This document shows, piece after piece, positions 5,919-22,293 of a stretch of DNA of 64,000 bases (within the stretch, counting starts at the first letter, position 1; the number at the start of each line of letters is the position of its first letter). Under the pieces are notes generated by a model. That model saw only the letters and a program-made list of their open reading frames with translations. It did no database searches and was not told the origin of the DNA. Where the stretch lies: NCBI RefSeq assembly GCF_001650875.1, contig NZ_LXYI01000021.1, forward strand, positions 17,558-81,557, read 5' to 3'. The position numbers and the translations under genes are program-made. Origin of the DNA: Sulfitobacter sp. EhC04 (GTDB taxonomy: Bacteria; Pseudomonadota; Alphaproteobacteria; Rhodobacterales; Rhodobacteraceae).

Positions 5919-6268
5919 TTGGCGGGCTTTCGGGTCATGAATGTCTTGCCTTTGATTCTCTCGGAGCATCATTGCACGAATTCACAAAACATCAACAAAA
6001 TGTTTGTAAAATGTCATTGTTAGGGTGATCGGGGCGGCAGGACGCAGATTTCCGGCGTGACATGTGTGCCTAATTTCCGATTGCTGCGTTACGCGACGGT
6101 CTATCCTGGATCAATTGTTGCAGTGTGGGTCGCGGTCGCGTATTTCCCGTCTCTATCGAAAACGCTGCTGCCCGGAGGTTACCTGTACGAGCATATGCCG
6201 ATCTGGATCGGGGCTCTTACCTTCTGGACCTGATTGGGGCGCGGCATAACCCGGACGGATGAAGCGCA
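5919..6268. promoter_or_regulatory. Divergent promoter region between DadA-like operon and iclR-type gene
   Basis: A 350-bp gap between two divergent transcription units. It must hold both promoters and probably the IclR operator. AT-rich sequence is concentrated at 5960-6020, nearest the operon. No open reading frame with coding features is visible here. Confidence 0.6.
5984..6007. promoter_or_regulatory. Inverted repeat, candidate IclR-family operator
   Basis: ACAAAACAT and ATGTTTGT form an imperfect inverted repeat with a 7-base AT spacer, 66 bp upstream of the DadA-like start codon. Its place in the divergent region beside an IclR gene suggests autoregulated control of the operon; this is inferred from position only. 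Confidence 0.4.
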
Positions 6269-7042
6269 ATGGACGATATCGGCGGACGCGAAAAGGCGAT
6301 ACCGACGAATTTGCGTCTGCTGCTCTTGCTGGAAGAGATCGCGCGCGTCGGGGCCCCGATGACCCCTACCGCCGCGAACGAGGTTCTGGGCTTGCCGAAA
6401 CCCACAGTGCATCGCCTGTTCCACAGGCTTGAGCAAGAGGGCTTCCTTCAGCGCGACATTGACGGGCGGTCCTATTCAGCGGGGCAGCGGCTGCGCAAGC
6501 TGTCGGTCAACGTGCTGTCCTCCAGCCGGGTGCGGACCGTGCGCCTCGCCGTTCTGAACGCGCTGACCGAAGACATCGGCGAAACCTGCAATGTCGCGAT
6601 GCCGGACCGGGACGGGATGGTCTATCTTGACCGGGTCGAAACGAAATGGCCCCTGCGCATCCAACTGCCTGTTGGCACCACGGTTCCCTTTCACTGTACC
6701 GCCAGCGGCAAGATGTACCTGTCTACCTTGCCGTCGCGGATGTTGGGCAAATATCTGTCGTCGGCAGCGCTGGAGCCGCAGACAGCAAGAACATTGACTG
6801 ATCCTGATGCCCTGCGTCATGCGATCGAAGATGTTCGGACGCTAGAATATTCTACCGATGACGAGGAGTTCATGGAGGGTATGGTCGCAATCGCTGTTCC
6901 GATCTGGGACGATCAACAGCGGCTGATGTCCACTCTTTCCATCCACGCACCGACCCAGCGCGTCACTATCGGTGACCTGGAGGCGCATCTGGACCGGCTC
7001 AGAACCGCGGCTGGCGATTTGTCAGAGATAGTTCTGCGCTGA
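6269..7042 (+). CDS. IclR-family transcriptional regulator
   Basis: The 257-residue protein has an N-terminal winged helix (residues about 12-75, with LGLPKPTVHRLFHRLEQEG as the recognition helix region). A C-terminal IclR effector domain follows (about 90-250), with GMVYLDRVETKWPLRI, FHCTASGKMYLS and a later AIAVPIWD segment. IclR proteins bind small organic acids and control adjacent catabolic operons. It is transcribed away from the DadA-TRAP-BASS-PxpBC operon, the obvious target. Its 3' end overlaps the 3' end of the convergent ycaQ-like gene by 21 bp. No strong ribosome site precedes the ATG. Confidence 0.92.
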   Translation: MDDIGGREKAIPTNLRLLLLLEEIARVGAPMTPTAANEVLGLPKPTVHRLFHRLEQEGFLQRDIDGRSYSAGQRLRKLSVNVLSSSRVRTVRLAVLNALTEDIGETCNVAMPDRDGMVYLDRVETKWPLRIQLPVGTTVPFHCTASGKMYLSTLPSRMLGKYLSSAALEPQTARTLTDPDALRHAIEDVRTLEYSTDDEEFMEGMVAIAVPIWDDQQRLMSTLSIHAPTQRVTIGDLEAHLDRLRTAAGDLSEIVLR

Positions 7043-8242
7043 GGCGCACAGCCAGCCGTCCTCGAATGCGACCTTGCTGACACCGGCAAGCTTGCACAGT
7101 CTTTCCAGTTCAGCCTCGAAGGCGCGTTGCCGCCCGCTGCCCCAGCGTATCCTGCCCTCCGGCCACAGCGCACTGACGCGCAACACATCCTCATTGCGAA
7201 AGGCCTTCATGTCGACGCGACCAACGATGCGGTCGCCTTCCAGAATGGGAAAAACGTAGTAGCCAAAGGTGCGTTTCGCTTGCGGTACAAAGACCTCGAT
7301 CCGGTAGTTGAACCCGAACAGCCGTTCGGCGCGGTTCCGGTCCCGCAGGGCCGGGTCGAAAGGGCTGAGCACCCGCAGGCGACCGGTGGGCGCCTTGTCG
7401 CGGGCAGGGTCCTGATCAAGACCCGGTCGCGCGAAAGCGAGTTTGACCGACCCGTCTGCCCCGGTAATCTGCACCTGTTCCAGCGCTCCTGCCGCCAGCG
7501 CCTCGGCGCACCAGTCGCGCGCCTCGGCCGGGGTGACATGATCCCAGAAGGCGGCAATCTCGGTGTGGGTGGCAAACCCCAGCCGTGAAAGCGCCTGATC
7601 GCAGCACCAGTCAATCGTGGCGGCGGTATCGGGGCAGTTTGCCGGATCGTGCAGATGTTGTTCGATCACCCGTTCCGTCAGGTCGTAACGCTTCTTGAAG
7701 CCGTCACGCCCGACAACGCAGAGCGCACCGGAACGCCACAGGTATTCCAGCGCGGTCTTGGAAGGGTGCCAGTCCCACCAGCCGCCGGAACCGCGTGTTT
7801 CACCCTTTCCGACATCGGAAGAACTCAGCGGTCCTTCGGCTGCGATCTGGTCCAGTACATTCTGAAACCGTTTCTCAAACCCATCCCGCCGCCAGTTGCG
7901 CCACCGCGCGCGCAGCTTTTCGGCGTCGCGCTGCCGTCTGAGATGCCACTGCGGATAGAACTCCATCGGAATGACCGCCGCATCATGTGTCCAGTGCTCG
8001 AACAGCGCCTTGTCTCGCTCGTAGAGGTGTTTCAGCGCTTTTGGCCTGTACCGTTGCCTGCGTGAAAACAGGATCAGGTCATGCGCGCGGGCCACGGTGT
8101 TGATGCTGTCAAGCTGCACAAAGCCAAGATCATGGATCAATCCGTGCAGCGCCGCGCCCTTTGCTTCGCCCACAGGGGCGTCGGACAGGCCGTGCCGGTC
8201 AAGGAAAATCCGCCGCGCCTGGCCGTTGTCCAGGGTCAGCAT
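7022..8242 (-). CDS. YcaQ/AlkX-type winged-helix DNA glycosylase
   Basis: A 406-residue cytoplasmic protein matching the HTH_42 (YcaQ) family along its whole length. The catalytic Q-hydrophobic-D motif of the YcaQ/AlkX branch is visible as Q43-L44-D45 in GFVQLDSINTVARAHDLI. Other family marks are the GGWWDWHPSKTALEYLWRSG segment near residue 155 and a C-terminal VDMKAFRNEDVLRV block. Characterised relatives unhook interstrand crosslinks and remove alkylated purines. The gene starts 2 bp after the LacI-type gene and may share its transcript, although the functions look unrelated. Confidence 0.85.
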   Translation of the reverse strand: MLTLDNGQARRIFLDRHGLSDAPVGEAKGAALHGLIHDLGFVQLDSINTVARAHDLILFSRRQRYRPKALKHLYERDKALFEHWTHDAAVIPMEFYPQWHLRRQRDAEKLRARWRNWRRDGFEKRFQNVLDQIAAEGPLSSSDVGKGETRGSGGWWDWHPSKTALEYLWRSGALCVVGRDGFKKRYDLTERVIEQHLHDPANCPDTAATIDWCCDQALSRLGFATHTEIAAFWDHVTPAEARDWCAEALAAGALEQVQITGADGSVKLAFARPGLDQDPARDKAPTGRLRVLSPFDPALRDRNRAERLFGFNYRIEVFVPQAKRTFGYYVFPILEGDRIVGRVDMKAFRNEDVLRVSALWPEGRIRWGSGRQRAFEAELERLCKLAGVSKVAFEDGWLCASAQNYL

Positions 8243-8244
8243 GA

Positions 8245-9279
8245 TTAGCGGCGATGGCGGCGCAGGGTGTCTCCGAACGACAGGGTCGGGGTCATTGTAA
8301 CCTGCGTCGGAACATCCGGGTCCGGTGTCTCGGACGTGTAGTTCAGAACGATTTTCGCCGCCGCCTGGCCAATCTCGCTCCGGCAGGCATCCATCGTCGC
8401 CAATTGCCGTGGCAGACCCTGCAACAGTTCGACACCGTTGAATCCGGCCAGACCGATCTGACCCGGTATGTCGATTTTCTGGTCAATCAGATACAAAAGG
8501 CCGCCTGCACCGATCATGTCATTGGAATAATAAAGGAAATCCAAGTCCGGTGAGCGTTCCAGCATCTCCTGCGTCATTTCCCGACCCTTGGCCAGCGCGG
8601 ACCCCCCGGAATAGAACGCGCGATCCTCAATCTCGACGCCCGCCTTGGCCAGCGCTTCGGTGAATCCTTCAAATCGTTTGCGCGCGCGGTGGTCCAGCGG
8701 CATCTTGGTGCCCATGAACCCGATATGTTCATACCCTTCCTTGAGGATCGCATTGGCCATTTCACGCCCGGCCCGGCGATGCGAGATACCCACCATCGCG
8801 TCAACGGGCCGACCGTCGGTGTCCATGATCTCGACCACGGGAATGCCCGCGTTCTTGAGCATCGCGCGGGTCGCGTCTGAATGTTCCAGCCCTGCGATGA
8901 TCACACCCGATGGCCGCCAGGACAGCATTTCGTAAAGCACCCGTTCCTCTTTTTCGGGCAGGTAGTCCGTTACGCCGACCACGGGTTGCAGCGGCGTGTC
9001 CTCAAGGACCTGATTGATGCCATTCAGGACTTCAGGGAAAACCATGTTGGACAGCGAAGGGATGATGACCGCCACCAGGTTCACCCGTTGAGAAGCCAGC
9101 GACCCGGCAATCTGATTTGGCACGTATCCCAGCTCCTTTGCCGCAGCCAACACCTTGTTGCGTGTGGCTTCCGATACATCCCCTCTCTTTCGCAGAACCC
9201 TGCTCACGGTCATTTCCGAGACACCGCAGGCCTCGGATACATCGCGGAGGGTGAGCGGCCGTTTGGAAGATGTGGTCAA
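8245..9279 (-). CDS. LacI-family transcriptional regulator (GntR/IdnR-like)
   Basis: This 344-residue protein has an N-terminal LacI helix-turn-helix (TLRDVSEACGVSEMTVSRVL, residues about 10-29) and the hinge helix region ending YVPNQIAGSLAS. A periplasmic-binding-protein-like effector domain follows, with VNLVAVIIPSLSNMVF and later YSNDMIGAGGLLYL. The pattern resembles gluconate-type LacI repressors. It lies 334 bp beyond the end of the sugar-acid kinase/RuBisCO-like operon and points the same way. It is therefore a reasonable regulator for that module, binding a sugar acid, but no operator was found to prove it. Confidence 0.92.
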   Translation of the reverse strand: MTTSSKRPLTLRDVSEACGVSEMTVSRVLRKRGDVSEATRNKVLAAAKELGYVPNQIAGSLASQRVNLVAVIIPSLSNMVFPEVLNGINQVLEDTPLQPVVGVTDYLPEKEERVLYEMLSWRPSGVIIAGLEHSDATRAMLKNAGIPVVEIMDTDGRPVDAMVGISHRRAGREMANAILKEGYEHIGFMGTKMPLDHRARKRFEGFTEALAKAGVEIEDRAFYSGGSALAKGREMTQEMLERSPDLDFLYYSNDMIGAGGLLYLIDQKIDIPGQIGLAGFNGVELLQGLPRQLATMDACRSEIGQAAAKIVLNYTSETPDPDVPTQVTMTPTLSFGDTLRRHRR

Positions 9280-9613
9280 ATTTTCATTCCTGATTACTCA
9301 GCAACCAGTTAGCGCGAAGCATGGGCAACGATCAAGCGCAGGCTTAGTCGTTCGGGACATTGATGCCACCGTGTTCGGGTCGCGGGTGCGGCGAACCAGC
9401 AAGAGCTATGCGGCAGGTTACAGCGCATACCTTTTTGAAATATGCTTCAAACCGCGCCCAGAACGCAGCCGGTAGTGCTGCTGACATGAAACATCCTCCT
9501 GCAAAGGATGAATCACAGATCAAACCAAAAGGGGAACCAGCGGCTGAAGTCTTAGGTGCGCCGCTTTGATGTAATATCCCCCAAGCCCGAGCCGCGATGC
9601 GGCATTTGCACAG
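9280..9613. other. Non-coding gap upstream of the LacI-type gene
   Basis: No convincing gene is visible. The stretch should contain the promoter of the LacI-type gene and the 3' untranslated part of the sugar-acid operon. Short open frames here show no family resemblance. Confidence 0.5.
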
Positions 9614-10015
9614 TCACAGGCCAGTCTCGACAAGTTTTTGAAGTTGGTCCCGCAGGCTCCCACCGACCGTTAGCCCAAGCGCCTTGGCCGCATCGTTGAG
9701 ATGCGAAATTTCCCCGTGATCCCACATATCCTGTGCCTCGCCAATCCGGCCGGAGGTATGAGAGGTGGCACCCGCTGCAACACCTCTTTCCTGCAGCATC
9801 GACAGCGCCGCGATACCCGCGTCGTCTTTCCCCACACCGGCGTCGTTGAAAAACACGATCTTGAGCGGCACTTCGCAGGCGAATTCACCAGAACTTGCCC
9901 CGCCATGCGAGGCGGAAACCACAATAGTGCCAGCATCATCCGCTGTCACCTTCGTGATCGAGTCCATGAGAATGATGCGGCCATTCGGCCCTTTTTCGAC
10001 TTCCACTTTCAGCAT
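9614..10015 (-). CDS. Conserved protein of unknown function (133 residues) in sugar-acid operon
   Basis: A soluble 133-residue protein without signal or membrane segment. Residues about 38-43 (HGGASSG) and 54-68, with NDAGVGKDDAGIAAL, form compact Gly/Asp-rich motifs that look like a ligand- or catalysis-related core. The C-terminal third, SHLNDAAKALGLTVGGSL, is likely helical. I have the impression of similar unnamed proteins beside sugar-acid kinases, but no function is known to me. It is the last gene of the minus-strand run TRAP binding protein, RuBisCO-like protein, kinase, 133-residue protein. The 152-bp gap before it is larger than in the rest of the operon. It may be an accessory enzyme of the pathway. 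Confidence 0.7.
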   Translation of the reverse strand: MLKVEVEKGPNGRIILMDSITKVTADDAGTIVVSASHGGASSGEFACEVPLKIVFFNDAGVGKDDAGIAALSMLQERGVAAGATSHTSGRIGEAQDMWDHGEISHLNDAAKALGLTVGGSLRDQLQKLVETGL

Positions 10016-10167
10016 GATAAGCTCCTATTGAATAAAAGGGGTTATGAACCGCGCCCGGCGTGTTGGATTTGCCTGTGCCGGCAAAGTGACCGGCAGCCTA
10101 TCCAATCCTTTTCCGGAACGGCGATCGCGGAGTACCGTCCGATACCTTCCATCTGCGCAGTCACAAG

Positions 10168-11511
10168 TCAGTTCGACCTGCGAATCTCCTCGAAAAAATT
10201 ATCCGTCCCCATCTGACCACCCTTGAGAACGATCTCCATCCCGTCGAACGTGCCCTCCTCCGCATGGACCCGGCACAACGGTGCTCCGGGCGCCGCCGGG
10301 GCAATCATTGAAAGGGCATAGATGCCCATTTCAGCGACGACGCCGCTGGAGGTATCGCCCCCCGAGACGATGGCCCGACCAATCTTTGAACGCTTCAGGA
10401 CCTCGCGGAATATCCGCGCCAGAATCGACGAAAGTTGGTCGGAAAATTTGTGCGGATCGCGCGCCTGCAACTCTTGCTCCTCCTGTGTGGGGGCCCCGAG
10501 TGCCGTATAGGCGACGACGCTCTTTCCGGCTTCAAGCTCGGCCACCACATCCGCAATAACGGTTTCGACTTCGCTTTCCTGCCGGTCGGGGTCCAGCAGG
10601 GTGATCGGGCTGATCTGTCGCCCCACAAAACCCGCATCCAAAGCCGAGAGAATTTGGCGCTCTGTCAGGGGCGAGCAGCTACCGGACATGACAAAAAGCT
10701 TATCGACCTCGCTCCGCAGATGCGCCGGTTCGTCGTCCGGCGCGATGTGCCCGGACCTTCGCCAATATTCCACCAGACCATACTCGACGCCGGACGAACC
10801 GGCGCAAAAGACCGGAGCCTCTTGAGCGCTGCGCCACAGGAGTTCTCCTGCGCGAGCGCTGCTCTCCTTGTCCGCCACGTCGTAAAACAGCACCTGGGCA
10901 CCGTTGGCGCGCAATCTGCTGTCGCAGTCGCAATAGTCCTCCCCAAGGATCTCCGCGATGTCGAGCAGATCAATTGACCGGTCTGTCTGCTGGCCAAGAT
11001 GCAGGCGGAGGTCACCTTCGTGCATGGGGGTAATGGGATGGGCGCTCATCACCGGATGACGGTCGATCCGATAGATAGCGCTCCCAAAGCCAGCGAATAG
11101 GTTTCCAAATGTTTGATAGCGACGCAGGCTGGGGGCGCCAACAATCACTGGCACGCAGGCGGATGAAAAAATATCCGCCCCAATGTCGATCGCACGCCCA
11201 ATGCTGCCTGTATGGGGCGCACTGTCGAAGGTCGAGCAGACCTTATAATGGCAAACTGGTGCGCCCAGTTCCTTGAGCGCCTCGAAGATCGGCGGTAGAT
11301 TTTCGCTCATCCAGTCCGGTGACTTGCTGCGGCTGTTACCGGCAACTCCAATGGCGCGCAGACCATCGAATTGGGCAAGGCGTTGGGCAGAGGGAACCTC
11401 CAGAAACAAGACAGCAGGCACACCGTTTCGGCAGAGCGACTCCATAGCGTCGGTCGAGCCTGTGAAATCGTCGCCATAAAAGGTCAGCAGTAGATTTGAT
11501 TTTTCACTCAC
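10168..11511 (-). CDS. Four-carbon acid sugar kinase family protein (DUF1537; OiaK/DtnK/OtnK-like)
   Basis: At 447 residues this fits the two-domain DUF1537 kinases. The N-terminal sugar-binding motif FYGDDFTGSTDAME is at residues 11-24, and the C-terminal nucleotide-binding motif IVSGGDTSSGVV near 395. Family members phosphorylate four-carbon sugar acids such as threonate and erythronate, or 3-oxo-isoapionate (OiaK). The start overlaps the stop of the RuBisCO-like gene by 4 bp. Pairing of such a kinase with a RuBisCO-like protein is the arrangement known from D-apionate degradation (OiaK with OiaX or OiaT), so 3-oxo-isoapionate or a close relative is the leading substrate. This is an inference; other C4/C5 acids remain possible. 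Confidence 0.9.
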   Translation of the reverse strand: MSEKSNLLLTFYGDDFTGSTDAMESLCRNGVPAVLFLEVPSAQRLAQFDGLRAIGVAGNSRSKSPDWMSENLPPIFEALKELGAPVCHYKVCSTFDSAPHTGSIGRAIDIGADIFSSACVPVIVGAPSLRRYQTFGNLFAGFGSAIYRIDRHPVMSAHPITPMHEGDLRLHLGQQTDRSIDLLDIAEILGEDYCDCDSRLRANGAQVLFYDVADKESSARAGELLWRSAQEAPVFCAGSSGVEYGLVEYWRRSGHIAPDDEPAHLRSEVDKLFVMSGSCSPLTERQILSALDAGFVGRQISPITLLDPDRQESEVETVIADVVAELEAGKSVVAYTALGAPTQEEQELQARDPHKFSDQLSSILARIFREVLKRSKIGRAIVSGGDTSSGVVAEMGIYALSMIAPAAPGAPLCRVHAEEGTFDGMEIVLKGGQMGTDNFFEEIRRSN

Positions 11512-12770
11512 TTTTCAAAGTACTCCAACGCTTGTGCAAGATGGGGGCGGTTCTGTGCATAGTCTGACGGGGCCACACCTTCGACGGCGGCCTGCCATGC
11601 ATCGCGAACACTTTCGACACCAGCCGCAATTCCCGAAGGATGGCCGATAATACCGCCTCCGCAGCAGTAGATTAGGTCAGTGCTGCCCACCGATTTGAAG
11701 GTCTCCCCTGCCTGAACGGCTGTCTGTCCAGAGGAAAACACCGGCATTGCCTGGTAGGGGGCATCTTCGAACAGAGGTGTCAGGCAAGCGCGCGCCGAGG
11801 CGACAACGCTTTGATCAGGCTCGGAAAATTTGTTGGAAATCCCGTTAACATGCATGTGATCCGCGCCCGCCAGCCGCCAAAGCTTTTGCCAGGCGCGGTA
11901 CTCGATTCCGATATGGGGCGAGCGATAGAAAAGGCCCCATCCATTTCTATGGCCATGGATGGGCAGTTGGCTGTGGCGGCGCAATGCCCCGAACCCGGCC
12001 AGTCCCACGCTGTTGAGGCTCGCCATGACACAAGTGCCGCCCTCTTCGCGGACCCGGTCATGTCGCCGCAGCATCTCGTCGGTTTCACCGGTGACATTGA
12101 ACGCGTACATCGGTTTGCGCCCGGTGCGCTCTGCGTGATCACGAATGACTGCCATTACCTTGGTTACGCGTTCGTCGAATGGACAGTGCGGCCCATCAGC
12201 CTGCAGCTCGTCATCCTTGATGAAATCGATTCCGGCTTCAACGAGATCCTTGACGATCTCTGCGGTCTGATCCGGCGACAGGCCAACTGATGGTTTTATG
12301 ATCGTGCCGACCAGTGGGCCAGAGGACACTCCGGCAAGCTCTCGTGTGCCAGTAATGCCAAATGCGGGGCCCTGGTAGGTCTCGGCAAAAGCCCGTGGCG
12401 GGGCGACGTCGATCAGGCGCAGTCCGGAAAATTGCTGCAATTCGAAGAGGTTGCCCGCTATCGTGGCCAGCAGGTTGGGCAATGACGTTCCCATATTGGC
12501 GAGAGGCCAGGAAATCGTCACTTGCGCGCGTTGCCATTTCGGTGAGGAAACACCTTTCGGCGTCATGGCACCGGGCAGAGAGGGTGTCGACACGGTCTCC
12601 AGTGGCGTGATCGTCTCGACCACGGCTGCGGAACGCGCTTTCAGTTCTGCGTCTTCATTGGGGATTTTGAGAAACGTGCCCGAGGATTGCTCACCAGCCA
12701 TTGCCGCGGCTGCTACCTCTAGCGGGTATGCGGTTTCGATCCAGTAGGTCGCGACGATACGTTCAGTCAA
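11508..12770 (-). CDS. RuBisCO-like protein (form IV), sugar-acid type (OiaX/OiaT-like)
   Basis: This 420-residue protein follows the RuBisCO large-subunit fold. Many active-site equivalents are kept: N107, K159 in IIKPSVGLS, the carbamylated lysine K185 with D187 and E188 in FIKDDE, H274 and R275 in HGHRNG, H307, and the loop-6 lysine K314. The second lysine of the KPK motif is replaced by Ser161, and the SGG phosphate loop reads SSGQT. This suggests a working enolase- or decarboxylase-type enzyme rather than a CO2-fixing one. Coupling to a DUF1537 kinase points to a 3-oxo-isoapionate-4-phosphate decarboxylase or transcarboxylase/hydrolase. Which of the two cannot be told by eye. Confidence 0.9.
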   Translation of the reverse strand: MTERIVATYWIETAYPLEVAAAAMAGEQSSGTFLKIPNEDAELKARSAAVVETITPLETVSTPSLPGAMTPKGVSSPKWQRAQVTISWPLANMGTSLPNLLATIAGNLFELQQFSGLRLIDVAPPRAFAETYQGPAFGITGTRELAGVSSGPLVGTIIKPSVGLSPDQTAEIVKDLVEAGIDFIKDDELQADGPHCPFDERVTKVMAVIRDHAERTGRKPMYAFNVTGETDEMLRRHDRVREEGGTCVMASLNSVGLAGFGALRRHSQLPIHGHRNGWGLFYRSPHIGIEYRAWQKLWRLAGADHMHVNGISNKFSEPDQSVVASARACLTPLFEDAPYQAMPVFSSGQTAVQAGETFKSVGSTDLIYCCGGGIIGHPSGIAAGVESVRDAWQAAVEGVAPSDYAQNRPHLAQALEYFEK

Positions 12771-12883
12771 AGGGGATCTCTCACAAAAAATAGAAGTGGT
12801 CTTTTTGAAACAAGACCGGCGGAAACGCGGATCATTTCGAGCAAGACATGCTGATGATTATTGGCAGATTGATCCGGTCAAGC

Positions 12884-12908
12884 CGCGGCGCCCCCTGAGG
12901 GCGCCGCG
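12884..12908 (-). other. Intercistronic hairpin after second TRAP binding-protein gene
   Basis: CGCGGCGCCC and GGGCGCCGCG make a perfect 10-bp stem with a 5-base loop, 15 bp downstream of the dctP stop on the minus strand. No U-run follows. Its position mirrors the hairpin at 3620-3643 and probably stabilises the binding-protein message within a longer transcript. Confidence 0.6.
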
Positions 12909-12923
12909 TCCGGGATCAACCTA

Positions 12924-13967
12924 TTACTTTTTCGCTTCTTCGATGAGCGCCGCACGATATGCCTCAAGCAGCTCTTCGGGCTTCTCATAGCCCTTTTCCT
13001 TGGCGCGCTTGAGCCAATCCTCCTCGATCGGTGCGAACAGAGTGCGCATGTGCTCCACATCTTCGGAGGAGGCCGTTACAACACTATAATTGTAGTCGGC
13101 TTTCAGCACTTTGATCGCATCAAGGTCCTGAGCCTCCCATTCCGCGCCAAACTTTGCCGCAACTTTGTCGGCCGAGATTGCCATGATCGCTGCACGGTCA
13201 GCCTCGGAGATCTTGGCCCATGTATTGCTGTTGACGATGATCATGGAGACAGGGCCCGTTAGGCCGCCAGGCACCATGTAGGCACTGTCGGTCAGGTCAG
13301 CCTGGTTGAAACCCACCAAGGTGCTGGGGAGCGTGACCTGGCCGTCGATTACGCCGGTCGACAACATCTCATAGGCTTCTGCCGGCGTTTTGGTGATTGG
13401 AACACCGTCAAGAAGCTTTACGATCTCGATGACGTTGGAGCTCGGCGCCCTGAGCTTCAAACCTGCGATATCTTCAGCCTTGTTGATGACTTTGCCCTTA
13501 ACAAAGAAATGCGATGCCGAGAGCGGGAAGGTCGTCAGAACGTGGACACCATCATAAACATTGAAGTCTTCCAGGTATTCCCGATAGATGCGATCATATA
13601 CCGGCGCGTGGATCGAAGCGCGATCGGACGTCAGCGGGAGATCGGCAAACTCGGCCACAGGAAAACGCCCAGGCGTGAAGCCGGTGGTGAACCAGCCTGC
13701 GTCAGCCAAACCGTCGCGCACCACGTCGAACTGGCTTGCGGGAGTGCCAACGACCTTTGGAAGAATGTCAACCTTTACGCGACCTTCGGTAACCTTTTCG
13801 ATTTCAGCGAACCAAGGTTCAATCACATCTGTAAGCGCGAAGTAGTTCCCAGGAAACCAGTTCGAATATTTTATCGTCACGGTTTCTTGCGCAGCGGCGC
13901 CCATGGGCAGCATCGTCAGACAGAGGCTGGTTACGACCCCCACGAAATTTAATCGTTTATACAACAT
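12924..13967 (-). CDS. TRAP transporter periplasmic substrate-binding protein (DctP family), sugar-acid module
   Basis: A 347-residue secreted protein with a signal peptide ending near AAAQETV (cleavage about residue 27). The binding-site arginine region is GLKLRAPSSNVIEIVK near residue 170, and the TRAP segment AYEMLSTGVIDGQVTLPS follows near 210. The start at 13967 is preceded by GGAGG. It is the first gene of the minus-strand module that continues to the RuBisCO-like protein and kinase. It most likely captures the sugar acid, or its precursor, fed into that pathway. Its permease genes are on the other strand, 0.8 kb away. Confidence 0.9.
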   Translation of the reverse strand: MLYKRLNFVGVVTSLCLTMLPMGAAAQETVTIKYSNWFPGNYFALTDVIEPWFAEIEKVTEGRVKVDILPKVVGTPASQFDVVRDGLADAGWFTTGFTPGRFPVAEFADLPLTSDRASIHAPVYDRIYREYLEDFNVYDGVHVLTTFPLSASHFFVKGKVINKAEDIAGLKLRAPSSNVIEIVKLLDGVPITKTPAEAYEMLSTGVIDGQVTLPSTLVGFNQADLTDSAYMVPGGLTGPVSMIIVNSNTWAKISEADRAAIMAISADKVAAKFGAEWEAQDLDAIKVLKADYNYSVVTASSEDVEHMRTLFAPIEEDWLKRAKEKGYEKPEELLEAYRAALIEEAKK

Positions 13968-14768
13968 TAAGTTCTCCTCCCTTGATTATTATAGGTGCCG
14001 GCGCAGCTACCGGCGCGGTCCAGCATGGGCATGTCACACCAAATCAAGAATTGAGTATGTCCCTGCGGTGTGTGACATCTGACAAAGTTTGTTCATGGTT
14101 AGGTGCGGGGCACAGCAAGTTGCGCCGTTGGGGTGACCCAGCTGCCTGAAGAGTAAATCGCCAGCCGTCGTAGATCGCATGTCCTTGAGGATCATCGCTA
14201 AAGCGAGGTGAGTAATGTGAGAACGACCGGAAAACGACAATGCGGACTGCTAAAAGTCTCAAATTCATACTGGGGGGAGTCCATATGAACACTGTCAATG
14301 GCATCGGAGCGGCGATGGCTGCTTCTGCTATAGTCAGAATTTGCGCGAGGCGTGGCACAATGCCATTCATCGTAGTTTGCGACGAGATGTCAGTCCACTT
14401 AAGGGCGACATGTCTGCAGTTCGGGGCGATCGTGCGGTCTACCAAAAATCGGGTGATGATCGACCTTCTGTCCGGAATCTCGGGAGGCGCGGCAAGCTAG
14501 CTCTGCGTCGTGAGGATGTTTTTGCCTTAAGACCTTTGTTTTGGCCGGGTGTCGGCCAGAAAGGTTTTTACGCATTTTGACGAACAAGCATGCAGCGTCG
14601 AGTTCAGTACCATCCACTCAAATCCCCTAGGCGACAGGTGACCATGCAACGTGCCATATCAAGCATGTGCGATCTGCATAAGGTCATATGTCATTCAACT
14701 TATCACTGCGGCGGCTGCCGCGAAGACAACAGCGACGTCGTGACCCCCTTTCATTCTGGAGTTCAAAG
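13968..14768. promoter_or_regulatory. Divergent 0.8-kb region between TRAP binding-protein and permease genes
   Basis: No gene could be supported in this unusually long divergent gap. Several open frames exist on both strands but none resembles a known family. It must hold two promoters. The most obvious structure is the inverted repeat at 14031-14078. Some of the gap may be remains of an inserted or decayed gene. Confidence 0.4.
14031..14078. promoter_or_regulatory. Inverted repeat in divergent TRAP promoter region
   Basis: ATGTCACACC (14031-14040) and GGTGTGTGACAT (14067-14078) are complementary apart from one extra GT, with 26 bases between. It lies 64 bp upstream of the binding-protein start. 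It could be an operator pair or an RNA hairpin in the 5' leader. Confidence 0.35.
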
Positions 14769-15335
14769 ATGACAAGAAAACTTGCAACAATCGCCAGCGT
14801 ACTCGCTGCGACTGCGCTTTTTGCGCTGATGATGGTGACATTTGTCGATGTGATTGGCCGGAGTGTCTTCAATCGGCCACTCACGGGTGGCAGCGAATTA
14901 TCCGAAATCCTGCTCGCCGCCTCAATTTTTCTGATGCTGCCACTGGTTGCAGCAAGCGAAGAGCATATCGCGGTCGACTTGATAGATCCTTTTCGAGGTA
15001 TTTTCTTGGTGCGGGTCGAAAAGATTCTCGTGACCGTTCTCGGGTCGGGGCTCTTTGCAATTATCGGCTGGAGGTTGTGGATTATTGGGGATCAGGCCGT
15101 CGGTTACCAAGATACCACGCCTTCGCTGCAAATTCCACTTGCGCCCATCATGTATAGCATTTCGATCTTGTCGTTTGTTGCAGCGCTCATGTTTTTTGCG
15201 GCTTTGCGAAATTGGAACCTGAAAGAAACGAAGAACCCCGAACTTGAACGGATCCTGAAGGCCGAAGGGCTCGATAGCCCGACTTCCGATGAACCTACCA
15301 GCGAAAAGCCCTCGAAGACGACGGTGGAGAACTAA
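14769..15335 (+). CDS. TRAP transporter small permease (DctQ family), sugar-acid module
   Basis: A 188-residue protein with four predicted membrane helices. The start at 14769 is chosen because CTGGAG lies 8 bases upstream and the N-terminus MTRKLATIASVLAATALFAL enters the first helix directly. An upstream in-frame start would add a basic 27-residue tail. The middle holds AASEEHIAVDLIDPFRG, matching the conserved DctQ loop. The C-terminus is longer and more charged than usual. It ends 1 bp before the large permease gene and faces the binding-protein gene across the 0.8-kb divergent region. Confidence 0.88.
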   Translation: MTRKLATIASVLAATALFALMMVTFVDVIGRSVFNRPLTGGSELSEILLAASIFLMLPLVAASEEHIAVDLIDPFRGIFLVRVEKILVTVLGSGLFAIIGWRLWIIGDQAVGYQDTTPSLQIPLAPIMYSISILSFVAALMFFAALRNWNLKETKNPELERILKAEGLDSPTSDEPTSEKPSKTTVEN

Positions 15336-15336
15336 T

Positions 15337-16632
15337 ATGACAATTGCTCTGATCGGTTTTGCTTTTGCATTCCTCCTCATCTTCCTGCGCGTTCCAATCG
15401 CCCTTGCAATGGGCGTCACGGGGTTTCTCGGCTTCGGCCATCTCGTGGGCTGGCCCCAATCTGCCATCATGGCTGCTATCGTCACGCGTGAGAGTACGAT
15501 GTCCTATGCCATGGTGGTGATCCCGCTCTTTATCCTGATGGGCAACTTCATTGCCGGCACCGGCGTGTCGCGTGAGATTTACCATGCGGCGCAGGCGTTT
15601 GTCGGCCATCGCCGGGGCGGCCTGGCTATGGCCACAGTGCTGGCAAGTGGCGGATTTGCCTCGATTTGCGGATCAAGCGTCGCCACAGTGGTGACCATCG
15701 GCAAGGTCGCCATGCCCTCGATGCGCCACTACAAATACGATGACGGCCTGAGTACCGCCTCCATTGCGGCTGGTGCAACTCTGGGCATTCTCATTCCGCC
15801 GAGCGTGTTGATGGTGGTCTACGGAATCCTCACTGAAACCCATATCGGCAAACTCTATGCGGCGGGGCTCATCCCCGGTCTGCTAGGCGTGCTGCTTTAT
15901 CTGGCTGCCGTGCGCTACACGGTCAAGCGCAGCCCGACCGCTGCCCCAACGGCCCCCCTTGTAAGTTGGGGTGATAGGTTCAGATCGCTCGCCGGAGTCT
16001 GGGCTGCACTTTTGCTGTTTGTCACTGTGATCGGCGGAATCTATTTGGGAGTTTTCACCGCGACAGAGGCGGCAGGTTTTGGGGCCTTCGGCGCCTTCAT
16101 CATCGCGCTTGCACGCAGGAAGCTCACACTTCGGAAGCTCTACGACATCCTGATCGACAGTGCCCGAACAACAGCAATCCTGTTTGCGCTGGTGATCGGT
16201 GCGGCACTGTTTAGCGAGTTCTTGAACTATTCCGGCGTGCACCGCGCATTGTTGGAGTTCATGACCCAATCGGGGTTCTCGCCTGCGATGATCATCGTTG
16301 TGATCTGCTTGATCTACGTGTTGTTGGGAATGGTGATGGAAACGATGTCCATGATCTTTCTGACAGTCCCACTGTTTTTCCCCATCGTGGTCGGACTGGG
16401 ATTTGATCCGGTATGGTTTGGCATCATTCTCGTGATGCTCTGCGAGCTGGGGCTCATCACGCCACCGATTGGAATTAATCTGTTCGTCATGCGCTCCGTT
16501 GCGCCGGACGTGCCGATCAGCAAGATCATTCGCGGTGTGATACCCTTCATCAGCGTGGATATCGTTAGAATTGCCCTTGTAGCGTTGTTTCCAGTCATCG
16601 CTTTGTTTCTTCCTGAGCTGCTATTCAACTAG
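15337..16632 (+). CDS. TRAP transporter large permease (DctM family), sugar-acid module
   Basis: A 431-residue membrane protein with about twelve helices. Standard DctM blocks are CGSSVATVVTIGKVAMPSM near residue 125, TLGILIPPSVLMVVYG near 150, and LITPPIGINLFVMRS near 380. The start at 15337 is 1 bp after the DctQ stop; an earlier in-frame ATG inside dctQ would add 16 basic residues and is unlikely. With the divergent binding protein it completes a second TRAP importer, presumably for the substrate of the RuBisCO-like/kinase pathway. A strong hairpin follows at 16724. Confidence 0.92.
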   Translation: MTIALIGFAFAFLLIFLRVPIALAMGVTGFLGFGHLVGWPQSAIMAAIVTRESTMSYAMVVIPLFILMGNFIAGTGVSREIYHAAQAFVGHRRGGLAMATVLASGGFASICGSSVATVVTIGKVAMPSMRHYKYDDGLSTASIAAGATLGILIPPSVLMVVYGILTETHIGKLYAAGLIPGLLGVLLYLAAVRYTVKRSPTAAPTAPLVSWGDRFRSLAGVWAALLLFVTVIGGIYLGVFTATEAAGFGAFGAFIIALARRKLTLRKLYDILIDSARTTAILFALVIGAALFSEFLNYSGVHRALLEFMTQSGFSPAMIIVVICLIYVLLGMVMETMSMIFLTVPLFFPIVVGLGFDPVWFGIILVMLCELGLITPPIGINLFVMRSVAPDVPISKIIRGVIPFISVDIVRIALVALFPVIALFLPELLFN

Positions 16633-17285
16633 CCTCCCGGAAGCGACAGGCAGCCATCGGTGATGTCACGTTCAGTGCGCTGTTGTTGTCCGCGTCACGA
16701 GTCGTGCATACCTGACTGACCCAGGTGCCGCTGATTACGATCAGCGGCACCGCGTCTTTGTTCTTCGCGAACCAAAGGGCCTGAGGTTCAGGGTTCTCGA
16801 TGACCGCCATTCCGTATTTGCCATCGGGCGGATGTGCCGTGTTATGAACGTCAGCTCACACGGTTTGCGGGCATTCCACAATCATACTGCCAGCCGCAGT
16901 CAGCGATCTGATTTGGCCACTTTGGCGCGGATCAAAGAAAAGTCCCGCCTCAGCCTGGGCAGCTAACTTGAGCGGGAAAATGTGCAAGGTTTAGGGCGTG
17001 GATCACCGGGCGGCTTGCAGAACTTCGTGACGGTTCCGTCAGCAATTCCAAACGGATTCTTTGCCCCAATATGCCACCCGTCAGCCAGAACCATCATTGC
17101 AGGCACTCGATTTCTGGAGGATCGCGGCGAACATCGCCTGACCCCACGAAGGCGGGTCTTCGCGGATTGCCGACAGGCTGCCATGCCAACACCCCGGCAG
17201 CACCTTCAATCAGACGCAGTCAGGCCCGCGATGTCGCCTTGATGACACCGCGGGCCGCTCAATTTTCTACTGAATTCGTGCTGTG
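16633..17285. other. Non-coding 0.65-kb gap between TRAP permease and MBL hydrolase gene
   Basis: Besides a terminator-like hairpin at 16724-16751, no gene is supported. A minus-strand open frame ending at 16625 (about 60-75 residues) has protein-like composition, but it overlaps the hairpin and has no recognised relative. Remaining frames look like decayed sequence. Confidence 0.4.
16724..16751 (+). terminator. Terminator-like hairpin downstream of TRAP dctQM
   Basis: GGTGCCGCTGAT and ATCAGCGGCACC form a perfect 12-bp stem with a 4-base loop, about 90 bp after the dctM stop. A weak T-rich tract (TCTTTGTTCTT) follows a few bases later. It probably ends the dctQM transcript. Confidence 0.55.
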
Positions 17286-18284
17286 CTACCGATTGGCCGA
17301 GTATTCAGCGGGAACATAGGTAAAGCCATCCCCTTTTGCCAAAAGGTGGCCAATGCCGGGAAAGGAAAAATGCGCGCCAGCTATCCATTGGCGCTTCCCG
17401 GATGCACCATCAAGGACGGTCTTGCGGACAGCCGCGGCCTCATCTTGGTCAAGGTCGAAGACCATCGAATATTCAGGATGCGCAAACTGAACTTGCGGAA
17501 CATGGAGAAGGTCACCCAGCAGCACCAGACTCTCACCTTCGCTTTCGATTGCATAAACGGTATGCCCAGTCGAATGGCCTATTGCAGGCAGGGCGCGCAC
17601 GCCAGGAACGATCTCGCGCTCACCGGAAAAGGCGACGAGCTGGCCTGCTTCCTGATAGGCTGACAGCAAGGATTGCGCAGCGGAGAAGTTCAATTCGTCA
17701 AGGCCAGCAGCGGCCTCTTTCTTGTCCGGGTCGGTGAAGAAGTCTATATCGCCCTGGCCCACCCAGACCTTGGCGTTCGGATATGCAGGTTTGCCCTCGA
17801 TGGACAATCCCCCTGAATGGTCGCCGTGGATGTGGGTCAAAAGGACCAAATCTACCTGATCTGGCTGGTAGCCGGCTGCGATCAGGTTCTGCTGCGTCTG
17901 ACCCAGCGTCGGACCATACAGGCTTCCACCTCCTGCATCGACGAGGATCAGCTGCGCACCTGTGTCGATCAGAAAGGCATTGACCGACATTTCCATCGGC
18001 AGCTTGGCAAATGCCAACTCGAACGCGGCGGCAACCTCGCCAGGTTCGGGACCAATAAGAAGCTGATCGACCGGCAGATCGAACGTGCCGTCGCTCAATG
18101 ACGTGATCGCGAAGTTACCAAGGGTCCATTTGTAAAAGCCCGGCGCCTGCCTTGGCATGGTAGTCACTTCATCAGCGGCGTATCCCTTGACCGGGAGCGC
18201 AACGGTTCCGACACCGATGGTCAGCGCCAGGGCAATTGAAGGAATTATCCTCATCAAGTCTGTCTTTATCGTGGCCCTACCCAT
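17286..18284 (-). CDS. Secreted MBL-fold hydrolase, methyl parathion hydrolase-like
   Basis: A 332-residue metallo-beta-lactamase-fold enzyme with a signal peptide (cleavage near GYAADEV, residue about 37). The start at 18284 follows GGAAGGGAAG. The zinc motif is H151-x-H153-x-D155-H156 in LLTHIHGDHSGGL. Later metal-ligand regions are GHSTGHT and LLGDLLHVPQVQF. Several stretches, such as LGNFAITSLSDGTFDLPVD and SFPGIGHLLAKGDGF, closely follow the methyl parathion hydrolase/organophosphorus hydrolase type as I remember it. The natural substrate of such enzymes in marine bacteria is unknown; lactones or esters are likely. It sits alone between two non-coding gaps, convergent to the TRAP permeases. 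Confidence 0.85.
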   Translation of the reverse strand: MGRATIKTDLMRIIPSIALALTIGVGTVALPVKGYAADEVTTMPRQAPGFYKWTLGNFAITSLSDGTFDLPVDQLLIGPEPGEVAAAFELAFAKLPMEMSVNAFLIDTGAQLILVDAGGGSLYGPTLGQTQQNLIAAGYQPDQVDLVLLTHIHGDHSGGLSIEGKPAYPNAKVWVGQGDIDFFTDPDKKEAAAGLDELNFSAAQSLLSAYQEAGQLVAFSGEREIVPGVRALPAIGHSTGHTVYAIESEGESLVLLGDLLHVPQVQFAHPEYSMVFDLDQDEAAAVRKTVLDGASGKRQWIAGAHFSFPGIGHLLAKGDGFTYVPAEYSANR

Positions 18285-18407
18285 TTTTCTTCCCTTCCAA
18301 ATTTTTCTTGGTGGGGCACCCACCCCGAAGCCAAGAGTTATGATCGCTCACGCTAGAGGGAAAGTTCGGCAGTCAATGTAACCGCTGGTGGGGACAACCT
18401 ATGGCAC

Positions 18408-18506
18408 TTCGCGTTAAACTTGAATCACCAAACGCTGCCTGAATGCATACTTTTCAACGCGTTAAGTGATGAGAAATGCGTCATGGTAAATGCGGAACGC
18501 TGTAAT
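18408..18506 (+). repeat. Structured 99-bp repeat, copy 1
   Basis: This 99-bp stretch aligns without a gap to 24318-24416 (my hand count is about 74 of 99 identical). A hairpin at 18424-18470 pairs ATCAC with GTGAT, AACGC with GCGTT, and TGAA with TTCA. In the other copy the inner stem bases differ but still pair, so the fold appears to be conserved. Both copies have the same orientation and sit in gaps at either side of the LuxR-PPC-VOC-MarR segment. It could be a mobile-element end, a small RNA, or an intergenic repeat family. Confidence 0.65.
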
Positions 18507-18609
18507 CGGAGTATTTGAATGGCAATGCCGTTCCGACGCTTGCGTTTGTCTCCGCTGATGACGCTCTCCCACGGCGCGACCTGCGCGGGTATCTGGGGAA
18601 GGCAGGCAG

Positions 18610-19422
18610 TCAGTTCAGTGTGGGCTGCGTGTTCGACGGCTGCCCGCCGCTCCATAGCGCCAGATACCACATGAGCAGCTCACGCCGGCAGCCAATTCCA
18701 AGGCGCTGATACGCCCGTTTGCGATAGGTCATGACGCTCTCTTTGCCAATGCCCAGATCAAGCGCGATCCCTATGGACGAGAGGCCGTAAAGAATGCGCG
18801 CGCAAACCTCACCCTCACGGCGCGAAAGGTGCTTGGAGGACAAAATGCATGTTTCGATATTCTCCAGCAAGGAGAGCGCCGGTGTGAGGTTGGGGCGCCG
18901 AAGCGTGAGATCAAGATGCTTGACGATGGCTGAAATCACGATGCCGGCAGCCTGTCGGAGGCTCTTTACGTCCTCGTCGGTGAGTTCTGCCTGATGTGCT
19001 GAACGCATGATTTGCAGGCAGTAGGACGCCTCGGGCCGACGGGCGCAAATCATGACGCGCTGGTGCCGCCGCAGCGTGCGGACCGGGCTCTGGGCGATCT
19101 CATCGTCGCTGATGTTGGCGACGTCGATCCGCAGTCCCGTTCCTGACATGGAAAGCTGTCGCCTCACCTCATAGACGGTCAGGTCGGACCGCGCTACTGC
19201 GCGTGCCCCTTCAACACTGGCGGACGCAACTTCGGACAGTTCAAAACCTTCCAACCGGTAGACGGAGCAATGGTCGGCACCCAGCAACTTGTCGAAGCAG
19301 GATAGCAGACTATCGGCAAAACTGTCGCTCCCGATCGCTTCCACGATCTCAGGCAATTCTACCAAATCGAAGGGTGCTCCTTGGTCGCCGTTGGCAACGG
19401 AAAAAATAAGTGAAGCCGTCAT
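18610..19422 (-). CDS. LuxR-type (GerE) transcriptional regulator
   Basis: The 270-residue protein has a C-terminal LuxR helix-turn-helix, running from HLSRREGEVCARILYGLSSI through GIGKESVMTYRKRAYQRLGI (about residues 195-245). The N-terminal 170 residues have a GAF-like character (LLGADHCSVYRLEGFELSEV) rather than a clear acyl-homoserine-lactone domain. The start at 19422 follows GGGAGGAC at good spacing; an upstream in-frame ATG is possible. It is divergent from the PPC/VOC genes, which are the likely targets. Bases around it are more AT-rich than in the core genome, in keeping with an acquired segment. Confidence 0.85.
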   Translation of the reverse strand: MTASLIFSVANGDQGAPFDLVELPEIVEAIGSDSFADSLLSCFDKLLGADHCSVYRLEGFELSEVASASVEGARAVARSDLTVYEVRRQLSMSGTGLRIDVANISDDEIAQSPVRTLRRHQRVMICARRPEASYCLQIMRSAHQAELTDEDVKSLRQAAGIVISAIVKHLDLTLRRPNLTPALSLLENIETCILSSKHLSRREGEVCARILYGLSSIGIALDLGIGKESVMTYRKRAYQRLGIGCRRELLMWYLALWSGGQPSNTQPTLN

Positions 19423-19941
19423 CGAAAAGTCCTCCCATACCTTCCTGCACTGGAATATTATTGCATTTTTAAAAATATGCAATGTGAAACTAATATTCAG
19501 AACCCCCGGCTTTATCCAAATTTAAAATACTGATTTTACTTATTTAAATTTCACCTGGGGAATCCCGAAATTTTCACGCCAGAGTCGCAATCTGTATTCT
19601 GGTGAAAAAAACTTGTCCCTGCGGCGCCAAACGGACCTCGCGCGGCGGGGAGACCGGCCTTGGGATCAGTGTGCCGGGCAAGACCGGCCGACACCGCGGT
19701 CAGGTCCTGCGCGCATAAAGCCTTCTCTTTGTCGCCTGATGCGTAACCGGGCATGGGGACAGACCAATTGGGCGGAGACGGTTTGATTGTAGCGGTCGTC
19801 TGACCGAAGTGAGGGCTGAAGTGTTTATGGAATTACGTCGATACCCGGCCGACCGTGACGGCATGGACGTGGCCCACGGCCTTCTCAACTGATTCAGACC
19901 TGCCCGAACCCTTTAATTACTCAAGACAATCGGAGATCTCA
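19423..19941. promoter_or_regulatory. Divergent gap between LuxR-type gene and PPC genes
   Basis: About 0.5 kb. The part near the LuxR gene (19440-19560) is very AT-rich, unlike the rest of the window. The part near 19640-19700 is GC-rich and degenerate-looking. No gene is supported. Two promoters must lie here. Confidence 0.45.
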
Positions 19942-20496
19942 TTGAGACAAACTCCCAAACTTCAGCCGCTGCGTTCCCGAAGTCTGATCCATCCCGGACA
20001 AATGAACCCGGTTCGGGTTCACTGTGAAGGATCGCCATTTGGACGTCATGTGCGCCTGCAGCTTCAACCCGGCGCCAACCTGTACGAGAGCATCGCAGTG
20101 CCCCTTGCGGCATGCGGCATCAAGAGTGCGTCCATGACGCTTCTCGGCGGCTATTACCGGGAGTTCAACTTTGTTGTTGCCCCTCCCGATCCTGAGGGAG
20201 GGGCCGTCATCGCCTTTGGTCCGCCCATCCCGACCGGCCATAGCTACATGGTTTTCGGAAACGCGACGCTGGGCACCAGTACCGAGGGCGCGCCGCTGGT
20301 GCATTGTCACGCGACAATCCGTACCGAGCGCGGCGAATTGCGGGGCGGGCACGTCTTGCCCGATCTTTGTACCGTGGGTGACGCCCCGATCTTTGCGCAT
20401 GTCACTTCTCACGAAACTTTTGCCGTGCATCAGGTCTTTGACAAAGAAACCAACTTTCCGGCGCTACAACCCTACGAGGAAAAAAATCATGAGTGA
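19942..20496 (+). CDS. PPC-domain (DUF296) protein, first of a pair
   Basis: A 184-residue soluble protein with a PPC (DUF296) domain. The conserved histidine motif HCHATI and the later RGGHVLPDL and AHVTSHETF segments are in the second half. I chose the TTG start at 19942 because CGGAG lies 6 bases upstream; a GTG at 19855 would add 29 less conserved residues. In plants the PPC domain accompanies AT-hooks, while in bacteria these stand-alone proteins have no established role. It overlaps the second PPC gene by 8 bp, so the two are probably subunits or partners. Confidence 0.75.
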   Translation: MRQTPKLQPLRSRSLIHPGQMNPVRVHCEGSPFGRHVRLQLQPGANLYESIAVPLAACGIKSASMTLLGGYYREFNFVVAPPDPEGGAVIAFGPPIPTGHSYMVFGNATLGTSTEGAPLVHCHATIRTERGELRGGHVLPDLCTVGDAPIFAHVTSHETFAVHQVFDKETNFPALQPYEEKNHE

Positions 20497-20881
20497 GCCA
20501 ATCTTGATCGAAACCGGATCGACCGGACGGGTGGCCTATGCGCGGATCGGACCGAACGAAGATTTGGTGCTGGGCATCGAAAAGATATGCCTGGCACGGG
20601 GTTTCAAGAATGCCTTTGTTCGTGGTGCAGTCGGCAGTCTTACCGACGCATGCCTCGGGACACCGGACGGCAAATACCTGCACGTTACAGGACCAGCAGT
20701 CGAGCTTACAAACCTGACCGGCGAAGTGCGCGCGACGGACGATGGCGCGGTCAGGGCGGTTTTGTCCGGGGTGGTCGCTGACACCGATGGCGAGGTCTAT
20801 GGCGGCCCCTTCATAGCGGGTGCAAATCCGGTTTGCGTTACCCTCGAAGTGACTTTGGAAGAATGGTTGCCCACCGGCTGA
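20489..20881 (+). CDS. PPC-domain (DUF296) protein, second of a pair
   Basis: This 130-residue protein is a compact PPC (DUF296) domain without extra regions. The typical ARGFKNAFVRGAVGSLTDAC and LSGVVADTDGEVYGGPF segments are present, and the C-terminus VTLEVTLEEWLPTG is characteristic of the family. The HxHA motif seen in its neighbour is not preserved, so the pair may have one metal-binding and one modified member. The ATG at 20489 lies inside the end of the first gene, which indicates coupled translation. Degraded IS256 fragments follow directly downstream. Confidence 0.8.
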   Translation: MSEPILIETGSTGRVAYARIGPNEDLVLGIEKICLARGFKNAFVRGAVGSLTDACLGTPDGKYLHVTGPAVELTNLTGEVRATDDGAVRAVLSGVVADTDGEVYGGPFIAGANPVCVTLEVTLEEWLPTG

Positions 20882-20935
20882 GGCCGCTCGGGTCACGCGC
20901 GCTTCCCTGACGGGGGGCGTTGAAATGACCGGGCT

Positions 20936-22292: not shown

Positions 22293-22293
22293 C

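Follow-up and report, generated by a model that had tools for sequence, protein, structure and literature searches.

A RuBisCO-like protein cluster of Sulfitobacter sp. EhC04 that lacks the apionate oxidoisomerase: a predicted catabolic module for a branched sugar-derived acid, with a conserved unnamed partner family

A 64,000-nt stretch of contig NZ_LXYI01000021.1 of Sulfitobacter sp. EhC04 (assembly GCF_001650875.1; hereafter, the window, to whose positions coordinates refer) carries a compact cluster at 9614–16632 encoding a RuBisCO-like protein (RLP), a DUF1537 kinase, a conserved 133-residue protein and a tripartite ATP-independent periplasmic (TRAP) importer. Taken as a whole, and with a probability that we put at about one half, the cluster would be a catabolic module in which a branched sugar-derived acid is taken up by the TRAP system, phosphorylated by the kinase and split by an RLP with an OiaT-like reaction. 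The imported acid would likely end up as 3-phosphoglycerate, by a route predicted to differ from the known breakdown of D-apiose. The pairing of an RLP with a DUF1537 kinase is a module of an already known kind; what is new here is the lack of an oxidoisomerase, TRAP import through a non-orthologous binding protein, and the conserved unnamed partner, whose family is the larger find of this analysis.

The cluster consists of six intact open reading frames (ORFs), at the coordinates given by a first-pass annotation of this DNA, and Pfam domains confirm the kinase, RLP and TRAP importer that it had placed side by side. On the reverse strand lie the genes for the 133-residue protein (9614–10015), for which, as for its family, we use the working label SM133; the OiaK-like kinase (10168–11511; 447 aa, GTG start), a predicted 3-oxo acid kinase; the RLP (11508–12770; 420 aa, TTG start); and the TRAP solute-binding protein DctP (12924–13967; 347 aa; PF03480). 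The forward strand carries the small permease DctQ (14688–15335; 215 aa; PF04290) and the large permease DctM (15289–16632; 447 aa; PF06808, with TIGR00786 also over its cut-off). The kinase ORF overlaps the stop codon of the RLP gene by 4 nt. The 720-nt region between dctP and dctQM (13968–14687) probably holds both divergent promoters; promoter and terminator scans of the region gave no excess over shuffled sequence and chance-level matches. A terminator-like hairpin lies 3' of dctM (16724–16751), such matches being at chance level in the region.

Judged by its domains, the RLP is a form IV member of the RuBisCO superfamily: its matches to RuBisCO_large (PF00016; 232 bits) and RuBisCO_large_N (PF02788; 38.4 bits) both exceed the gathering score, whereas the type III RuBisCO model gives 248.6 bits against a cut-off of 497, so that it is not form III. 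It keeps the catalytic residues N107, K159, K185, D187, E188, H274, H307 and K314, which we take to be the equivalents, in the same order, of N123, K175, K201, D203, E204, H294, H327 and K334 of the spinach enzyme, and KPK is changed to KPS and SGG to SGQ, all as the first-pass annotation had written. The best curated model is that of OiaX (NF042437), at 461.3 bits with a cut-off of 700. Scores against this model are bimodal: the RLP of locus L050 reaches 749.9, seven other distinct RLPs give 399–516 and three more 423–453. In a 73-row tree (a quick IQ-TREE run, with SH-aLRT support only, on 63 RLP loci with gene context, PDB entry 3nwr and nine outgroup rows, one of which, a long branch, fell inside; one cut RLP was excluded), the OiaX clade is separate from the window RLP at an SH-aLRT of 100. 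Moreover, the position of H327 is Gln in the OiaX clade and His in both RuBisCO and the window RLP. The latter is 45% identical to the PGAP-named OiaX of Rhizobium etli (L163) and groups, with support 98, with the RLPs of Roseovarius azorensis (71% identity) and Lichenicoccus roseus, whose loci both carry the SM133 family, through which they were found. On these sequence comparisons, the window RLP lies outside OiaX, the characterised clade of decarboxylases. The proposed pairing of OiaK with OiaX or OiaT survives as an OiaK-like kinase with an OiaX-like RLP, the RLP itself not being OiaX by score, clade or the His residue; as far as OiaX is concerned, it does not belong to a functionally characterised clade whose gene neighbours are the same. 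Its neighbours differ from those of OiaT.

Source names are generic among the best 120 relatives of the RLP. Relatives at 58–64% identity (four records) lie in clusters with a Gfo/Idh/MocA dehydrogenase, a lactonase-position protein and a sugar ABC importer, the D-apiose layout, in which the sugar dehydrogenase would presumably be ApsD and the lactonase-position gene ApnL; three of these four non-OiaX apiose-type records have an oxidoisomerase within the stretch. PDB entry 3nwr matches the window RLP at 415 bits. A second RLP of the same genome (L035; G000:C23:66030-67280) is 49% identical and has kinase, VOC, TRAP and LacI genes, and no oxidoisomerase, alongside; its clade includes 3nwr and Azospirillum and Neorhizobium relatives.

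The kinase is, from its sequence, a DUF1537 or four-carbon acid sugar kinase: SBD_N (PF07005; 162.3 bits) and NBD_C (PF17042; 120.7 bits) both score over their cut-offs, and the OiaK model (NF042436) gives 485.3 bits, below its cut-off of 700. Its pairing with an RLP recurs widely. DctP, DctQ and DctM are all over their Pfam cut-offs and make up a complete TRAP transporter. The best solved chain for DctP is 4p56_A (175 bits); it is 19–27% identical, over partial alignments, to four of five DctPs of related clusters, the fifth giving no hit.

The RLPs of apiose pathways are described as decarboxylating, or as transcarboxylating and hydrolysing, 3-oxo-isoapionate-4-phosphate (excerpts of PMC6302742). 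Neighbouring genes bear on which of these reactions applies. The R. etli OiaX operon also holds genes for triose-phosphate isomerase (TPI) and RpiB, which is what a route through erythrulose phosphate would need, and relatives of these occur at two of four OiaX-clade loci versus none of 60 other RLP loci (counted in the fetched stretches only); at L050 they lie ~9 kb from the RLP gene. Enolase and/or pyruvate kinase genes show the opposite distribution, at none of the four OiaX-clade loci versus three of the 60 others: Haloterrigena and Cupriavidus pinatubonensis with both, and Bradyrhizobium elkanii with pyruvate kinase. Such neighbours point to phosphoglycerate as product, and OiaT yields 3-phosphoglycerate and glycolate. 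Given the absence of TPI and RpiB, and the presence of enolase or pyruvate kinase at those three loci, an OiaT-like transcarboxylase/hydrolase reaction is the likeliest prediction for the window RLP.

The first-pass annotation had noted that the apiose-specific genes are missing from the cluster and suggested that the imported compound may be another acid, or may join the route late. For the oxidoisomerase and the lactonase, the absence extends to the entire genome. The oxidoisomerase family PF16896 (ApnO) has no member in this genome, which is 99.9% complete, whereas 13 of the 16 genomes with an RLP in the family sample carry it; the other two exceptions, G088 and G092, have RLPs in the clade of the second RLP of Sulfitobacter sp. 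EhC04, with a VOC gene just upstream. The PF16896 member at L102 matches PDB entry 5t57, which we take to be apionate oxidoisomerase, at 353 bits. Similarly, the lactonase-position protein has no relative at E ≤ 1e-10 in this genome, G088, G092 or the Roseovarius genome, four of the eight genomes searched being positive. The sugar dehydrogenase, sought in the window only, gave no hit there. Since the genome has neither PF16896 nor a lactonase relative, the imported acid is likely to join the pathway beyond that step or to bypass it, and a different or late-entering acid is still the best reading. RLP–kinase clusters of Caballeronia, Chimaeribacter and Bradyrhizobium without an ApnO match in the stretch carry short-chain dehydrogenase/reductase (SDR) and LysR genes; in these, direct oxidation at C3 of a C2-branched acid would make the oxidoisomerase needless, and the same may happen here with a dehydrogenase encoded elsewhere. 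Among the literature matches listed, no paper treats an RLP–kinase cluster without an oxidoisomerase.

The pathway that we propose would thus begin with uptake of a branched sugar-derived acid by the TRAP system. With the oxidoisomerase missing, this acid probably either has its branch at C2 already, and would be oxidised by a dehydrogenase whose gene lies elsewhere, or undergoes rearrangement by some other protein. The kinase would phosphorylate the 3-oxo form, which the RLP would then split by decarboxylating it, recarboxylating the enediolate on the adjacent carbon and hydrolysing the product, giving 3-phosphoglycerate and glycolate; these are the steps and products of OiaT.

The 133-residue protein, listed as unknown by the first-pass annotation, is one of a widespread family whose genes are found together with those for RLPs, kinases and oxidoisomerases. 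A Pfam scan of it gave nothing at E ≤ 0.001, and its family comprises 1956 proteins at E ≤ 0.01, itself included; these widespread relatives rule out an orphan or a chance ORF. A scan of a genome collection with two exact peptide patterns yielded 79 SM133 loci, split at a tblastn E of ~1e-33 into 51 closer and 28 weaker ones, six of the latter still being 50–56% identical over shorter stretches. Partner genes were counted within the fetched stretch, within 10 kb, many contigs being short; conclusions about neighbours rest on tblastn, since naive gene calling in GC-rich loci produced numerous spurious antisense ORFs. At 31 of the 51 closer loci versus none of the 28 weaker, the stretch holds at least one of three partner genes (RLP, kinase, oxidoisomerase). 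Among the closer loci, 24 have an RLP, 27 a kinase, 25 an oxidoisomerase and 20 all three, and the oxidoisomerase is present at 20 of the 23 that have both RLP and kinase. When the window and two haloarchaeal loci are added to the 51, a partner lies within 400 bp of SM133 at 24 of 54 loci (oxidoisomerase at 16, RLP at seven, IlvD at four, kinase at three). We rejected a role as a strict RLP subunit, as RLP, kinase and oxidoisomerase genes are all absent from the stretch at 20 of the closer and all 28 of the weaker loci.

On the RLP tree, SM133 presence changes at least eight times, so that the link between the two is not explained by descent alone; nearly all SM133-bearing rows of that tree were sampled through the SM133 family. 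Apiose-type genes occur at one of 26 loci with both SM133 and an RLP versus 14 of 37 others, a comparison in which 23 of the 26 were found through SM133 and L149 and L150 were chosen after RLP and SM133 matches, the window alone being free of this bias; a phylogenetic pair test of SM133 against apiose-type genes, with five pairs only, was not significant. On haloarchaeal plasmids, the records of which were hand-picked from search listings, a tandem-fusion SM133 lies just upstream of the RLP and kinase genes. The Haloterrigena plasmid (L149, 12435–21130) carries tandem SM133, RLP, kinase, aldo/keto reductase, pyruvate kinase, enolase, oxidoisomerase and IclR genes, with TRAP and aldolase/citrate lyase genes close by, possibly a complete acid-to-pyruvate route on one archaeal plasmid. 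Additionally, a pair of Halomonas alkalisoli proteins (P0074 and P0131), each listed with a contig of 31,375 bases, suggests that the SM133–RLP link extends to the Gammaproteobacteria.

Other family members have different surroundings. The tandem form is present in six of 99 other genomes of the window's family; in three of those six, and in one Geminicoccaceae genome, it is near acetolactate-synthase-like (thiamine diphosphate) and pyruvate-dehydrogenase-E1-like genes. Tandem forms of ~270 residues near genes of these two kinds are seen at L155 (3289–8626), L156, L158 and L121. At L061 and L065 (and, by gene clustering, L067), SM133 members adjoin amidase genes in loci without an RLP, a gene for MlrC or an amidohydrolase also being close, and further contexts include epoxide hydrolase genes, an AMP-binding enzyme and acyl-CoA-type genes. 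At L062 (8515–11809), a kinase gene and SM133 accompany a 446-aa ORF that is MFS-like by eye; its 20-kb stretch has no RLP, and PF16896 is found elsewhere in the genome.

In terms of fold, the window protein appears to be remotely DUF1805-like: PF08827 scores 16.2 bits, below the cut-off of 29.5, and is matched at E ≤ 0.01 by 10 of 70 family members (best, 4e-4). Foldseek, run with a structure model of mean predicted local distance difference test (pLDDT) 96.6 (78.9 for an earlier model), found nothing at E ≤ 0.001, and a profile search of solved structures gave chance-level hits only. Among the literature matches listed, no paper addresses the function of DUF1805/YunC, and none the SM133 family. 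SM133 is probably a pathway enzyme whose substrate would be a branched 3-oxo acid resembling acetolactate, in a reaction adjacent to that of the oxidoisomerase. Its recurrence beside the oxidoisomerase, which resembles ketol-acid reductoisomerase, and the IlvD dehydratase, and that of the tandem form near acetolactate-synthase-like enzymes, leads us to a bolder idea, speculative and rather improbable as it stands: the family would be a new one of enzymes for acetolactate-type (2-hydroxy-2-branched 3-oxo) acids, here taking the place of the redox oxidoisomerase through an NAD-independent shift or epimerisation of the branch, so that a branched 2-oxo acid or a C2-branched one would be the starting point for the kinase and RLP. 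To our knowledge, a RuBisCO-like route of that sort is unlike known pathways.

The left boundary of the cluster (9259–9613) is defined by comparison with another genome of the genus, G055, in which DNA similarity covers the IclR, AlkZ-like and LacI genes and ends at 9258. The 10 kb of G055 that follow this break match nothing within the first 40 kb of the window, and no RLP turns up in G055 at E ≤ 1e-20. The GC content is 0.58–0.63 in 1-kb windows starting at 4000–8500 versus 0.52–0.60 in those starting at 9000–23000. The LacI gene (8245–9279) was considered as a cluster-specific regulator and rejected: it has a match at E ≤ 1e-60 in 38 of 41 chosen genomes, of which 37 (this genome included) are at ≥71% identity, G055, with no RLP match, being among them. 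It is a core gene outside the cluster. On the strength of the synteny break, the lower GC and the widespread LacI gene, we treat the cluster as an accessory segment, probably gained horizontally, from which LacI is excluded.

Several observations count against the proposed module and its OiaT-like step. The tie to OiaT runs through neighbour genes only, and enolase or pyruvate kinase is present at just three of 60 loci. The RLP in the five-gene apiose cluster of Rhodobacteraceae strain LCG007 is named a decarboxylase (excerpts of PMC11747546). No gene for a dehydrogenase able to make the 3-oxo acid is near the cluster, the sole SDR match of the window being 30% identical and at 57867, and none of the DctPs compared from related clusters is an orthologue of the one in the window, so that the imported acid may differ. 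Furthermore, among the genomes of the 20 closer SM133 loci whose stretch shows neither RLP nor kinase nor oxidoisomerase, five have an RLP or PF16896 match elsewhere and 15 have neither. The decarboxylase naming in print (excerpts of PMC11747546) would also suit an RLP of the OiaX type, yielding L-erythrulose 1-phosphate and CO2, as would the OiaX model being the best-scoring one and the 45% identity to the R. etli protein. The score of 461 against 700, the separate clade, His rather than Gln at the H327 position and the lack of the TPI and RpiB genes of the R. etli operon make this improbable. Oxygenase activity, reported for the D-hamamelose-pathway RLP of Ochrobactrum anthropi, is in our view very improbable for the window RLP. 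That step has been linked to 3-phosphoglycerate and glycolate (excerpts of PMC8914248), the title of the original paper, as cited in PMC10176493 (seen in excerpt), uses the term, and enolase and pyruvate kinase neighbours would fit equally; against this, nothing ties the window RLP to the hamamelose RLP, the sequence of which is not in the comparison.

The remaining alternatives concern the missing oxidoisomerase. The substrate might be D-apionate itself, imported as the acid, with an unrecognised enzyme (possibly SM133 together with a dehydrogenase encoded elsewhere) replacing the oxidoisomerase, and the kinase and RLP acting as known. The sister cluster of Roseovarius azorensis, where RLP, kinase and ApnO genes are accompanied by IlvD, GntR and TRAP genes, with SM133 farther upstream, lends this some credit, in that its genome has no lactonase relative, as if the acid were imported; ApnO is also in the stretch at 21 of the 26 loci with SM133 and RLP (the window counted among them), and SM133 most often stands beside it. 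Yet no enzyme with oxidoisomerase chemistry was identified in this genome, SM133 and ApnO occur together in most such clusters, so that SM133 is no simple substitute for ApnO, and DctP is not orthologous to the others compared; we therefore hold D-apionate to be an unlikely substrate. Alternatively, the cluster might be a remnant that lost its oxidoisomerase (and dehydratase) and is no longer a working pathway. Five of those 26 loci have no ApnO in the stretch: the window, L078, L081, L096 and L150. The L078 and L081 genomes hold ApnO elsewhere, the L096 genome (completeness not stated) has no match and L150 is a plasmid record, so that only the present genome is stated to be near-complete and yet lacks ApnO; additionally, the cluster adjoins the synteny break. 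Against decay stand six intact genes, the 4-nt RLP–kinase overlap and a full set of catalytic residues, and other RLP–kinase clusters without ApnO in the stretch are also annotated with full-length genes, all of which makes a remnant doubtful.

Elsewhere in the window, a metallo-beta-lactamase-fold protein, nearest to the AidB lactonase model but under its cut-off and with a signal-peptide-like start by eye, is encoded next to a LuxR-type regulator (17286–18323 and 18610–19482). A second TRAP-like gene set, with weak DctM and DctP matches, lies beside a carboxyltransferase (CT_C_D) and an FAD oxidoreductase (DAO) gene at 73–5972. A PCC/DUF296-domain protein is followed by an ORF resembling it by eye at 19855–20881, and a DUF296 gene is also near the tandem SM133 gene of L178. 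The tRNA-Asp called by ARAGORN at 26414–26513 (anticodon atc), inside a heparinase-like ORF, is probably spurious.

The RLP has at least 7932 relatives at E ≤ 1e-100; only a handful of RuBisCO-like proteins have been characterised (excerpts of PMC10176493), and generic labels call such proteins RuBisCO. With a kinase, an RLP, one small protein and one importer, the present cluster is a minimal case for a direct test of the reaction. Moreover, an unnamed family tied to RLP metabolism in bacteria and haloarchaea offers a first way into a fold that has until now been met solely in a domain without known function.

Among known systems, the closest is D-apiose catabolism with OiaK and an OiaT-type RLP, reportedly described by Carter et al. 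in 2018. It shares the RLP and DUF1537 kinase with the present cluster, which differs in that its genome has no oxidoisomerase or lactonase relative, its importer is of the TRAP rather than the ABC type, and it has the extra 133-residue protein. Strain LCG007, also of the Rhodobacteraceae, grows on D-apiose and has a five-gene cluster with lactonase, apiose dehydrogenase and oxidoisomerase genes (excerpts of PMC11747546); compared by description, this is likewise a kinase and RLP in an alphaproteobacterium, whereas our cluster is without those three genes. OiaX (NF042437; R. etli, L163) shares the superfamily, the partner kinase and 45% identity, but the window RLP is under the model's cut-off, in another clade, with His for Gln and without TPI and RpiB genes. 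PDB entry 3nwr ('A rubisco-like protein') shares the RLP fold but sits outside the clade of the window RLP, in that of the second RLP, where the RLP genes of the other members have a VOC gene immediately upstream. DUF1805, represented by TA1206 (PDB entry 1qw2), is the nearest known domain to the 133-residue protein, which falls under its Pfam cut-off. RLP, kinase and SM133 are all shared with the SM133–ApnO–RLP–kinase clusters of Comamonadaceae and other betaproteobacteria, Acetobacteraceae, Rubrobacter and haloarchaea (L052, L102, L092, L094 and L149, as well as L150, without ApnO in its stretch); these differ in mostly having the oxidoisomerase and, in several cases, IlvD, and the haloarchaeal SM133 is a tandem fusion.

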